Shown in pieces: positions 3,477-10,720 of a stretch of DNA of 25,347 nucleotides; the first letter of the stretch is position 1, and each line of letters opens with the position of its first letter. A program made the translations under genes and the position numbers. Under the pieces are notes generated by a model, which was not told the origin of the DNA, did no database searches, and was given only the letters and a program-made list of their open reading frames with translations. The DNA is taken from positions 1 to 25,347 of IMG/VR virus record IMGVR_UViG_3300037961_002798, one strand, 5' to 3'. The DNA is from a virus.

Positions 3477-3653
3477 TTACTCCTTACTCTTTTCTAAATT
3501 AATCATTTCCTTTGCTAATGCTACACCTTGATTATAATAATCATTATCTGATTGATTTAGTTCGTTTTGTGAAAAACAATCTATAGCACCTTGCTTAAAA
3601 TTTTCTAAATTTTTGAAGAATAATTTTTCTAATTCTATGTATTCTTTGTTCAT
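3477..3653 (-). CDS. Small acidic helical protein, 58 aa
   Basis: Not recognised. The product is helical, polar and has a single Cys. I choose the ATG at 3651-3653 (MNKEYIELEK), not the one 24 bases upstream: the upstream ATG belongs to the recurrent ATGAATAAG box and has no Shine-Dalgarno, while AGAGGAAATTAAA precedes the chosen one. The leader contains a stem-loop (3686-3708) and the box (3669-3677). Confidence 0.65.
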   Translation of the reverse strand: MNKEYIELEKLFFKNLENFKQGAIDCFSQNELNQSDNDYYNQGVALAKEMINLEKSKE

Positions 3654-3668
3654 TTTAATTTCCTCTTT

Positions 3669-3708
3669 CTTATTCATTTATTTATTGAGCAGTTTAGTCA
3701 CATGCTCA
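3669..3708 (-). promoter_or_regulatory. Leader: covarying stem-loop plus ATGAATAAG box
   Basis: In minus-strand order: stem TGAGCA, 11-nt loop TGTGACTAAAC, stem TGCTCA (3708-3686), AT-rich linker, ATGAATAAG (3677-3669), then the RBS of the 3477-3653 gene. The stem-loop is the first of three related copies (others at 9068-9090 and 9450-9472) whose stems differ by compensating changes. Confidence 0.6.
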
Positions 3709-3854: not shown

Positions 3855-3891
3855 CTTATTCATTTATTTTTACTGCAATCTTTTTGACTGC
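3855..3891 (-). promoter_or_regulatory. Leader: 5'-terminal stem-loop plus ATGAATAAG box
   Basis: Minus strand: GCAGTC-AAAAA-GATTGC (3891-3875; six pairs with one G-U), linker, ATGAATAAG (3863-3855), GAAGGAG. The predicted transcription start (about 3893) puts the stem-loop at the very 5' end of the mRNA, a place where stem-loops are known to slow 5'-end-dependent decay. Confidence 0.55.
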
Positions 3892-3899
3892 TCCTTAAC

Positions 3900-3928
3900 A
3901 TGATATCATAACAACAACAACATGTCAA
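3900..3928 (-). promoter_or_regulatory. Early sigma70-like promoter A
   Basis: Minus strand: TTGACA (3928-3923), 17-base spacer containing (GTT)4, TATCAT (3905-3900). It should drive the block from 3840 down to the terminator at 475. Confidence 0.75.
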
Positions 3929-3980: not shown

Positions 3981-4034
3981 ATAGATAACATAACAACGTA
4001 CTCTCTCTTAAGAGAGTAGTATGTTATGTTCTAT
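3981..4034 (-). terminator. Long imperfect hairpin after the primase gene
   Basis: AACATAACA/TGTTATGTT (9 pairs), a small internal loop, then TACTCTCT/AGAGAGTA (8 pairs) around CTTA, with an outer ATAG/CTAT. It begins at the primase stop codon. There is no clean U run after it, so it may be a weak or protein-dependent terminator, an mRNA-stabilising end, or a dyad binding site. Confidence 0.5.
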
Positions 4035-6067
4035 CAAATATCATTTTCATTAATGTAATACTGTCCACCAGAATTTCTAATTTTATTTCTTGCTTCAAGT
4101 CTTTGTAATGTTACTCTCAATGTTGGTAGAGGTATGTCTGTTTCCTCTGATAGTTCCTCTCTATTCATTGGTCTTGTTTTCAATTGATACAAAATTTTCT
4201 CTGGATTAGTTTGTTTTGCTGACAGGTTACTGCTCTTGTTCAAATCTCCAAAGTCATAACTTATGCTGACAGTATTATCATCCTCATCATTAACAAATGT
4301 AACTTCATATCCAACTGGTTTATGTACACCACCTGTATTGTTACCTTTCCTGTGGTACATACCAATTATGCTAGTGTTTCCATCTTGGTCATCATCTTTC
4401 TCTGCTGACCAAATGTTCCTAGATAGGTTGGTAAAGAACACACTACCATAAGCATGAGTATCTGACCCAGACTTAGTAATATGAGTAATACCAAGTGATG
4501 AAACACCTAAACTTCTAACTGCTTGATGGTAAGTTCTAGCACTTTCTGGACTGTTAGTATCCTCGTTACCACTAGCAACTACACTATCAATACAGATTAA
4601 TTCTATGTTGTGCTTAGAAATATCTCTTTGTATCTCCTCTAAATGATTTACTAAAGGTGCATCAAATCTCCTGTAAATTACAGGATGTAATAAATCTTTT
4701 TCTGTAAGACCTGCACCTCTAAGTAATCCATACATGATGGAATAAAACTCTTGCTCACTTGCTTCCCAGTCACAGAACATAACTGCACTCGGCTCTCTGA
4801 TATAAAGGTTAGGTAATAAATTTTTCCCAGAAGCCTTTGAGAGTAATGTTGCTATTGCAATAGTAGATTTACCAGTACCACCTGCTCCCATGATTAAGTT
4901 ACTTTGGTTTTCTTTGACATATGGTTTAGCACTCCATCCATCTTGCGTGATTTCTGGCTTGTAAGTTCTCATGTCATGTCCTACTGATGATGTTTCTAAA
5001 CTCTTATGTATCAGAATAAAAGTATTAGACAGTATAGATTTCCAATTTCTCTCTGCGTCTATTGATGTAAGTTCTTTCCTTAAACTATCAACACTACTAG
5101 ACGATAGCATATTGATACGTCTTGGTGCAGTAATTGGTGTACCCTCATCCTCTATCTCTATCTGACAACTTAGACTATCTCCTCGTTTTGTAATAGAAGT
5201 ACAGTTTATTACTATGCCTTGTTCTGGATATCTAAACACTCTCCTGTTTGCTATTGAAACTTCTACGATAGGTGTTTCTATTTCTTGGTTTTCATAATTC
5301 TCAAACGTCTGATACCTACCAGAATAAATACTATCTATCACTTGCATCAACTCAACTACTTCCATAGGAGGTGTACACTTACTACTGTATTGTTCCATCA
5401 ATGTTATCGCAACATCTTTACTGATGTTCTTACTTCTAAAATACCCTGCCAGTCTACTCGCCATATCGTTTCTTTGACCCTCTGCTACTCCTCTAAGAGC
5501 ATCCGACACCCATGTAGGTTGTTTGCTACCATTCATACTTTCAATGAAGTTCTGTGAACGTTTCTGTTTTACTTTATTCTGTTGAAATTCTGTAATCTCT
5601 GACCATTTAAGTATCGAAACTTCTTTACTGCTTGTATATTCTTTGCCATTTACAATACTTGGAGGTGCTAAAACGTACCCACCATCTGCTCGGACATCAA
5701 CTTTGTCTACAAGACCTGCTGTTTGTGATAAGTTTTCGTCATACTCAATATAAAAATGGTAACCTCTTGGTGTTTTTACATACCTAGTCTTTGGTATTTC
5801 TAATCCTACCTCTTTCAGATTGGCAACTGCTGACTTATCATCTAAATCTATTACATTTATTCCAGATATTTTACCTGTTGCTATTCCAATATTTGCATCT
5901 GGATATTTTTTGAATAGTTTTTCTGCTATCTCGTAATCATTGGTAGCACTTTTTCCACCATTAGGTTGCAACTCGCTATCATATAATGGCTCTTTGTTAT
6001 TTGACTTGACTGCTAAGACACTAAAACCCTCTGCAATATACTGTTGTGCCATCTCTAAGTTATTCAT
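4034..6067 (-). CDS. Bifunctional PrimPol primase-helicase
   Basis: 677 residues, the likely replication initiator enzyme. The N-terminal PrimPol domain (about 1-160) has NIGIATGKISGINVIDLDD with the metal-binding Asp74 and Asp76, then TPRGYHFYIEY with His104, and VRADGGYVLAPPSIVNGKEY. The central RecA/AAA-type motor has Walker A GAGGTGKS (394-401), FCDWEAS (431-437) and Walker B ELICIDS with Asp494, followed by GITHITK. The C-terminus (about 624-677) looks like a winged helix: REELSEETDIPLPTLRVTLQRL. Such proteins prime and unwind at phage or plasmid origins. I choose the third ATG (6065-6067), 13 codons inside the longest frame, because AAGGAGATAAA precedes it. The leader holds a pseudoknot-capable element touching that RBS, so translation is probably controlled. 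No separate DNA polymerase is seen in the window. Confidence 0.88.
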   Translation of the reverse strand: MNNLEMAQQYIAEGFSVLAVKSNNKEPLYDSELQPNGGKSATNDYEIAEKLFKKYPDANIGIATGKISGINVIDLDDKSAVANLKEVGLEIPKTRYVKTPRGYHFYIEYDENLSQTAGLVDKVDVRADGGYVLAPPSIVNGKEYTSSKEVSILKWSEITEFQQNKVKQKRSQNFIESMNGSKQPTWVSDALRGVAEGQRNDMASRLAGYFRSKNISKDVAITLMEQYSSKCTPPMEVVELMQVIDSIYSGRYQTFENYENQEIETPIVEVSIANRRVFRYPEQGIVINCTSITKRGDSLSCQIEIEDEGTPITAPRRINMLSSSSVDSLRKELTSIDAERNWKSILSNTFILIHKSLETSSVGHDMRTYKPEITQDGWSAKPYVKENQSNLIMGAGGTGKSTIAIATLLSKASGKNLLPNLYIREPSAVMFCDWEASEQEFYSIMYGLLRGAGLTEKDLLHPVIYRRFDAPLVNHLEEIQRDISKHNIELICIDSVVASGNEDTNSPESARTYHQAVRSLGVSSLGITHITKSGSDTHAYGSVFFTNLSRNIWSAEKDDDQDGNTSIIGMYHRKGNNTGGVHKPVGYEVTFVNDEDDNTVSISYDFGDLNKSSNLSAKQTNPEKILYQLKTRPMNREELSEETDIPLPTLRVTLQRLEARNKIRNSGGQYYINENDI

Positions 6068-6079
6068 TTTATCTCCTTG

Positions 6080-6140
6080 CTTATTCATTTGATTAAGGAT
6101 GGGCATGGACTAAATGAATAAGAAAAAAAAATCCATGCCC
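6080..6140 (-). promoter_or_regulatory. H-type pseudoknot in the primase leader
   Basis: In minus-strand order: GGGCATGGA (6140-6132), nine U, CTTATTCATTT (6122-6112), AG, TCCATGCCC (6109-6101), ATCCTTAATC, AAATGAATAAG (6090-6080), then CAAGGAG. Arms 1 and 3 pair perfectly over 9 bp, arms 2 and 4 perfectly over 11 bp, and they interleave, which is pseudoknot topology with loops of 9, 2 and 10 nt. The last arm ends one base before AAGGAG, the primase RBS. Seen: both perfect inverted repeats and their order. Inferred: folding and translational control. Confidence 0.65.
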
Positions 6141-6144
6141 TGTA

Positions 6145-6174
6145 ATATTATTTGTTCTAGTTAAACCATGCCAA
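6145..6174 (-). promoter_or_regulatory. Weaker sigma70-like promoter for the primase
   Basis: Minus strand: TTGGCA (6174-6169), 18-base spacer, TAATAT (6150-6145). The predicted start, about 6139, would make GGGCATGGA of the pseudoknot the 5' end of the mRNA. It overlaps the end of the 6157-6468 gene. Confidence 0.4.
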
Positions 6175-7785: not shown

Positions 7786-7914
7786 TTAACAACATTTTGT
7801 TATGGTTGCAAGTTCATCAAATTGTTTACAACACTTACAATTTTCATTGTAAATTCCTATCAATCCATCAAAACATATTTCATGTTTTTCATCATCACAA
7901 AAACAACTATTCAT
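7786..7914 (-). CDS. Cys-rich miniprotein, 42 aa
   Basis: Read from ATG at 7912-7914 to TAA at 7786-7788. Eight of 42 residues are Cys: C4, C6, C14, C26, C28, C29, C41 and C42 (MNSCFCDDEKHEICF, then NENCKCCKQF, ending KCC). The spacing is not a plain CxxC ribbon; it could bind zinc in a compact cluster or be an oxidised knot. No signal peptide is visible, so metal binding in the cytoplasm is more likely. It has the exact 16-base start cassette AAGGAGTAAGTAAATG. Confidence 0.65.
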   Translation of the reverse strand: MNSCFCDDEKHEICFDGLIGIYNENCKCCKQFDELATITKCC

Positions 7915-8030
7915 TTACTTACTCCTTATTTATTTTATTTTCGTGGCGAATATACTTCCTCTTTTGTATATCTCTTACTTTGTTTTATACTTAACTCTGA
8001 TTAATAACAGGAATAAAACCACTTATATAT

Positions 8031-8794: not shown

Positions 8795-8825
8795 CTTATT
8801 CATTTTTCAATCAATTTATGATTGA
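8795..8825 (-). promoter_or_regulatory. Leader: 5'-terminal stem-loop plus ATGAATAAG box
   Basis: Minus strand: TCAATCA-TAAAT-TGATTGA (8825-8807; seven pairs), four-base linker, ATGAATAAG (8803-8795), then AAAAGAGTAAGTAAA and the start of the 8519-8779 gene. Predicted transcription start about 8826, so the stem-loop is 5'-terminal. Confidence 0.6.
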
Positions 8826-10288: not shown

Positions 10289-10318
10289 ATAATACAACAA
10301 CAATAATATATTTGTCAA
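10289..10318 (-). promoter_or_regulatory. Early sigma70-like promoter D
   Basis: Minus strand: TTGACA (10318-10313), 18-base spacer with (TTG)3, TATTAT (10294-10289). A decayed copy of the AAGTAC palindrome (AAGTAT-TATA-GTAATC, 10317-10332) overlaps the -35. Confidence 0.75.
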
Positions 10319-10458: not shown

Positions 10459-10720
10459 AGTGTTATATTTAGCCCATTTTTAACCTGTTTTTAGTGTTAT
10501 AGTTAGAGCGCCGATACCTGTGCCGTTACTGTTGTATATATATACACCCCATTAGAGTGCTGAATTGTTTTTTGTAGTATTTATAACAGTTATATAACAG
10601 GTGTTATAAGTGTTATAAAACAAGTGTTATAACAGTTATATAACAGTCCTAAAAGTGTTATATAACACCCCCTATATATATATATATATATATATAAATT
10701 ATATTGTTATAACGTAACAC
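10459..10720. repeat. Iteron-like repeat field, candidate origin/control region
   Basis: Between the divergent early and late units. GTGTTAT occurs at 10460, 10494, 10601, 10610, 10624 and 10655. GTTATATAAC is at 10589 and 10635, inside an exact 20-bp repeat starting TTATAACAG at 10581 and 10627. A perfect palindrome, GTGTTATATAACAC, is at 10655-10668, (TA)12 at 10673-10696 and GTATATATATAC at 10534-10545. No gene is present in 10233-10804. The mix of iterons, dyads and melting-prone DNA suits a replication origin or a late-promoter switch; neither is proven. Confidence 0.6.

Follow-up and report, generated by a model that had tools for sequence, protein, structure and literature searches.

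The window, that is, the whole 25,347-nucleotide stretch of DNA analysed here (IMG/VR record IMGVR_UViG_3300037961_002798), is a linear virus record without close named relatives; weak matches were found for a terminase (PHROG 2) and for a capsid protein, the latter to Pelagibacter phages at 32–34% identity. The leftward operon, made up largely of small genes, contains a minus-strand leader that separates a small gene (stop at 6157) from the start codon ATG (6067–6065) of a Prim-Pol/AAA_25 primase-helicase gene (4034..6067, minus; Pfam PF09250, 4e-27; PF08708, 6e-10; PF13481, 9.6e-14). As the original prediction stated, two perfect inverted repeats of 9 and 11 bp interleave here in the order A-B-A'-B' (6140–6080), with the arm lengths and the loops of 9 U, 2 and 10 nt that it gave. 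Read 5' to 3' on the minus strand, a conserved flank, AATATTACA (6141..6149), upstream of which the relatives diverge, is followed by arm A, the 5' strand of stem 1 (GGGCATGGA, 6132..6140); by loop 1, an all-U tract, TTTTTTTTT (6123..6131), of 9 residues here and 8 or 7 in relatives; by arm B, the 5' strand of stem 2 (CTTATTCATTT, 6112..6122); by AG as loop 2 (6110..6111); by arm A', the 3' strand of stem 1 (TCCATGCCC, 6101..6109); by loop 3, ATCCTTAATC (6091..6100), which includes UCCUU; and by arm B', the 3' strand of stem 2 (AAATGAATAAG, 6080..6090), a member of a ribosome-site motif family. A single base, C 6079, separates B' from the Shine-Dalgarno site AAGGAG of the primase gene (6073..6078, minus), again as predicted. 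The start-codon region AAATGAATAA (6060..6069, minus) offers B a second partner in cis, with 10 bp.

Taken on its own, hairpin A has a 9-bp stem and a 22-nt loop that contains B. Dinucleotide-preserving shuffling of the whole window gave an interleaved pair of at least 9 and 11 bp on the minus strand in 3 of 2,828 trials, and in none of the 60 trials of a first run. The nested fold of 6145–6060 has a z-score of −2.80. A rough energy sum that includes a generic pseudoknot penalty of 9.6 gives −24.1 kcal/mol for the pseudoknot of the window versus −21.7 kcal/mol for the non-knotted ensemble, and for the B/B' variants of two relatives (L007 and L055) it places the pseudoknot roughly level with the plain hairpin or below it in stability. 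At the Rfam gathering threshold the whole window gave no match, with sub-threshold hits alone around the leader site, and no intrinsic terminator was found there on either strand.

The leader is known in eight copies, which come from closely related, incomplete contigs and amount to six distinct sequences. Four IMG/VR contigs have the same primase (97–99% identity) together with the leader, and the primase DNA of this first group of carriers is 96–99% identical. DNA-pattern scans of the viral collection yielded only three further copies (L007, L008 and L055), and a search of bacterial genome contigs with the leader core pattern gave no match. In L007 and L008 the leader, about 95% identical, stands ahead of a C5-cytosine methyltransferase gene (Pfam PF00145), and the element ends more than 15 bases before the Shine-Dalgarno site; in L055, likewise about 95% identical, it stands ahead of a small ORF of unknown function. 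A 75-base block is thus common to phages with different genes on both sides of it. L008 (genome G002) and L055 also have a long segment in common, which includes the terminase gene of L055. Four Prim-Pol relatives at 33–41% identity have no comparable leader, and in three of these the upstream ORF reaches or enters the primase start region; a methyltransferase homologue in a further contig, L018, also stands without the leader. Judged from these gene neighbourhoods, the leader is not a primase-specific regulator. As a separate observation, L007 (7169–8124, minus) and L008 (5072–6045, minus) each carry a pair of long, same-strand ORFs in different frames, which overlap almost completely and start at adjacent positions (ATGTG) after a single Shine-Dalgarno site; the first is the C5-methyltransferase (PF00145, 1.8e-30; phrog_363, 2e-50) and the second matches phrog_1008, 'DNA methyltransferase' (1e-25), which makes the pair a candidate for dual coding or a frameshift fusion.

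Because the eight copies are closely related, conservation alone says little about the pairing. The covariation check in related contigs suggested with the original prediction came out positive for stem A, with one G-C to A-U change, and found none for stem B. Of 100 leader bases, exactly two distinguish L003 from L001, and these are the two partners of a single A/A' pair; we estimate that chance would produce such a paired difference about one time in a thousand. An automatic covariation count was less favourable, its observed score being reached in 72 of 500 within-column shuffles, since one event in six distinct rows counts for little there. The A/A' pairs are kept in all eight copies, and over the six distinct sequences standard pairs occupy all A/A' cells and 97% of the B/B' cells. 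The B strand is identical in 8/8 copies and stem B has no compensatory change: L007 and L008 have a changed last base in B', with which the terminal C-G pair is lost, and L055 has one internal A-A mismatch together with a different 8-bp partner for B, TAAATGAA, which abuts GGAG. On comparative grounds, we regard stem A as a well supported predicted helix, and stem B as plausible but unproven.

Based on this arrangement, we tentatively propose, with a little less than even confidence, that the leader is a modular 5'-UTR RNA of the leftward operon that would impose conditional ribosome loading on whichever gene follows. In this hypothetical scheme, the B segment of the 22-nt hairpin loop would fold back onto B' to form an H-type pseudoknot, and the pairing of B with the A-rich motif beside the Shine-Dalgarno site would act as a brake or insulator on ribosome loading; we infer that stem 2 forms in the cell and that translation is thereby lowered. 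The brake might be relieved by upstream ribosomes, by an RNA-binding protein or by antisense pairing. The regulatory pseudoknot of the original prediction is in this sense retained in part: a pseudoknot-capable leader beside the Shine-Dalgarno site, with a compensatory change in stem A, agrees with it, whereas its tie to the primase does not hold.

The sequence of B' bears on a different reading, in which B, together with the U tract, would pair with AAATGAATAAG and the Shine-Dalgarno sites of several leftward genes. These partners could lie in the same operon or be reached in trans, and the cis pseudoknot would be one case of such pairing; we consider this reading unlikely, although several results point towards it. 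Counting B as a reverse complement, the window holds five exact copies of AAATGAATAAG against 0.05 expected. Four are in operon orientation just ahead of Shine-Dalgarno-like sites of leftward genes, namely B' itself and the copies at 3855..3865, 3669..3679 and 8795..8805 (all minus); the single exact reverse-complement copy is B, located in the hairpin loop; B is invariant where B' varies, and pairs equally well with the copies ahead of other early genes. Among predicted loop duplexes, for which gene starts were taken approximately by a simple script, the gene at 3653 (behind the copy at 3669..3679) is the strongest target at −20.9 kcal/mol and exceeds the leader's own site at −14.2 kcal/mol, and none of the rightward genes scored. 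Only 4 IMG/VR records contain the strict motif together with AAGGAG, and the leader is present in two of these. The match of B to several genes could, however, simply follow from its pairing with B', since a B that evolved for B' would fit the other copies automatically, and action in trans is accordingly hypothetical. Looser relatives of the motif, AAATAAATAAG (family AAATRAATAAG), are common ahead of ribosome sites in these operons, leaderless phages included; the leaderless L018 also has four predicted loop targets, and G002 carries the leader and no other exact copy of AAATGAATAAG. A portable leader whose loop is antisense to the early-gene motif, combining a cis pseudoknot (possibly with U-A-U triples in the major groove, formed by the U tract and the AAA of B') with action on other early mRNAs and so coordinating their translation, would unite both ideas and appears quite unlikely to us. 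We put little weight on a hairpin-plus-motif module as a general rule. With the same approximate gene starts, upstream folding z-scores were compared for 20 chosen leftward genes of the window, and the lowest four strikingly belong to the four genes with the motif, but a looser test gave p = 0.06 for the window, 0.003 for L001 and 0.07 for L003, with no signal in L004 or L055.

The mobility of the leader would also be expected if it were a mosaic joint or passive spacer for cassette exchange, its hairpin serving merely as an insulator or mRNA stabiliser, a reading that we regard as possible, if somewhat unlikely. It accounts for flanking genes that vary between carriers around a kept 75-base block, and other short intergenic blocks act likewise; other leaders, such as the one at 3928–3855, keep their UTR before different genes, and the rare ACC variant of loop 3 that L004 and L007 both carry fits recent exchange. 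Such a joint has no need, however, for the compensatory change in stem A or for an 11-nt self-complement. The inverted repeats exist in the DNA too, and in the window a replication gene follows them, so that a protein operator or a single-strand replication signal might be at work in place of an RNA structure; we judge this improbable, as all motif copies except B share one orientation relative to their genes and are positioned immediately before ribosome sites, and the element also precedes the methyltransferase gene and the small ORF. The original prediction had favoured control of primase synthesis by its own or another product. In favour of repression of primase synthesis by the primase or a phage ssDNA-binding protein bound to the pseudoknot, in the manner of gp32 on its own mRNA in T4, one can cite the position of the pseudoknot beside the Shine-Dalgarno site and the precedent of T4 gene 32 (PMC3014915, PMC535899). 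Because the leader is also found ahead of unrelated genes in L007, L008 and L055, and the Prim-Pol relatives at 33–41% identity lack it, autoregulation by the primase is very improbable and the least likely of these rivals. The modular leader that conditions ribosome loading on the following gene remains the interpretation that we prefer.

Among characterised systems, the leader of gene 32 in T4, T2 and RB69 is a folded element of about 28 nt that is bound by the gene's own product (PMC535899). It has in common with the window an H-type pseudoknot, or in our case a pseudoknot-capable sequence, upstream of the ribosome site of a replication gene. In T4, the pseudoknot is followed by a less structured stretch of more than 40 nucleotides that carries UUAAA/UAAA repeats (PMC535899), whereas the window has predicted stems of 9 and 11 bp, a B' that abuts the Shine-Dalgarno site, and a leader that also stands before unrelated genes and so is not tied to the gene of a binding product. 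By comparison, the T4 pseudoknot is a functional analogue, yet a gene-specific one. The E. coli rpsO (S15) leader likewise contains a pseudoknot, as part of a translational operator (PMC3014915), and the window shares with it a leader pseudoknot that is predicted here; rpsO differs in being a case of gene-specific autoregulation by a ribosomal protein, and the window leader has no Rfam match. In organisation, the closest analogue is provided by the SAS/ESAS elements of Cluster K mycobacteriophages, a motif found in one orientation at the translation starts of a subset of genes, about half of them with inverted repeats just upstream, with a single complementary-strand copy in three genomes and a function described as unknown (PMC3203893). 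A repeated one-orientation motif at translation starts and one opposite-strand copy (B) recur in the window. Sequence and hosts are different, the window motif being AAATGAATAAG and not the SAS sequence GGGATAGGAGCCC; there are 11–19 copies per genome there and four here, and the part of that account available describes no interleaved pseudoknot for the Cluster K elements. A second, unrelated phage leader pseudoknot that is mobile between phages and genes would show pseudoknots to be interchangeable UTR parts, and the complementarity of loop and motif offers a direct, inexpensive way to test whether translation is coordinated across compact early operons.

Other signals proposed around the leader did not hold. 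A promoter at 6145–6174, from which transcription was predicted to start exactly at arm A, relies on a −35 box, TTGGCA, that lies within the upstream gene and is missing from L001–L003 and L007; the alternative pairing of GGCATGG with CCATGCC fails in the same way, its partner (6172–6166) lying in that gene and being absent from the same contigs. In the leftward half of the window, 55 promoter-like hits were found versus 57 expected from shuffles, and a repeated promoter motif, AATATTACAGGG, was dismissed for want of enrichment. Within loop 3, UCCUU can pair with AAGGA of the Shine-Dalgarno site in the window and L001–L003; as an anti-Shine-Dalgarno switch it was rejected, with only −2.3 kcal/mol and UACCU in its place in L004, L007 and L008. 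An N-terminal extension, MPILNQMNKQGDK, in the primase frame is open in both the primase and the methyltransferase contexts, and was set aside given the stop inside it in L055 and the lack of a Shine-Dalgarno site before these ATGs.

The best leftward matches to the promoter consensus lie away from the leader, at 10318–10289 and 3928–3900. The region 3928–3855 (minus) begins with a near-consensus promoter (TTGACA-17-TATCAT, with TG before the −10 box), and the UTR after it carries a hairpin (GCAGTC-AAAAA-GATTGC) as well as the AAATGAATAAG motif. Pieces of the same UTR are also present in L001, L004 and L055, where they precede different genes. A 34-base block at 7908–7941, which has the common ribosome-site sequence AAATAAATAAGGAGTAAG and matches G002 at 94% and G005 at 100%, behaves as expected of a short sequence at a mosaic boundary. 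Dense direct and inverted repeats of the GTTATAAC type, possibly an operator array or an origin, occupy 10580–10668, in the region that separates the leftward from the rightward transcribed half of the window, and a GGACACTTT-type repeat array with interleaved inverted copies occurs at L027:1070 and L028:1165 (minus).
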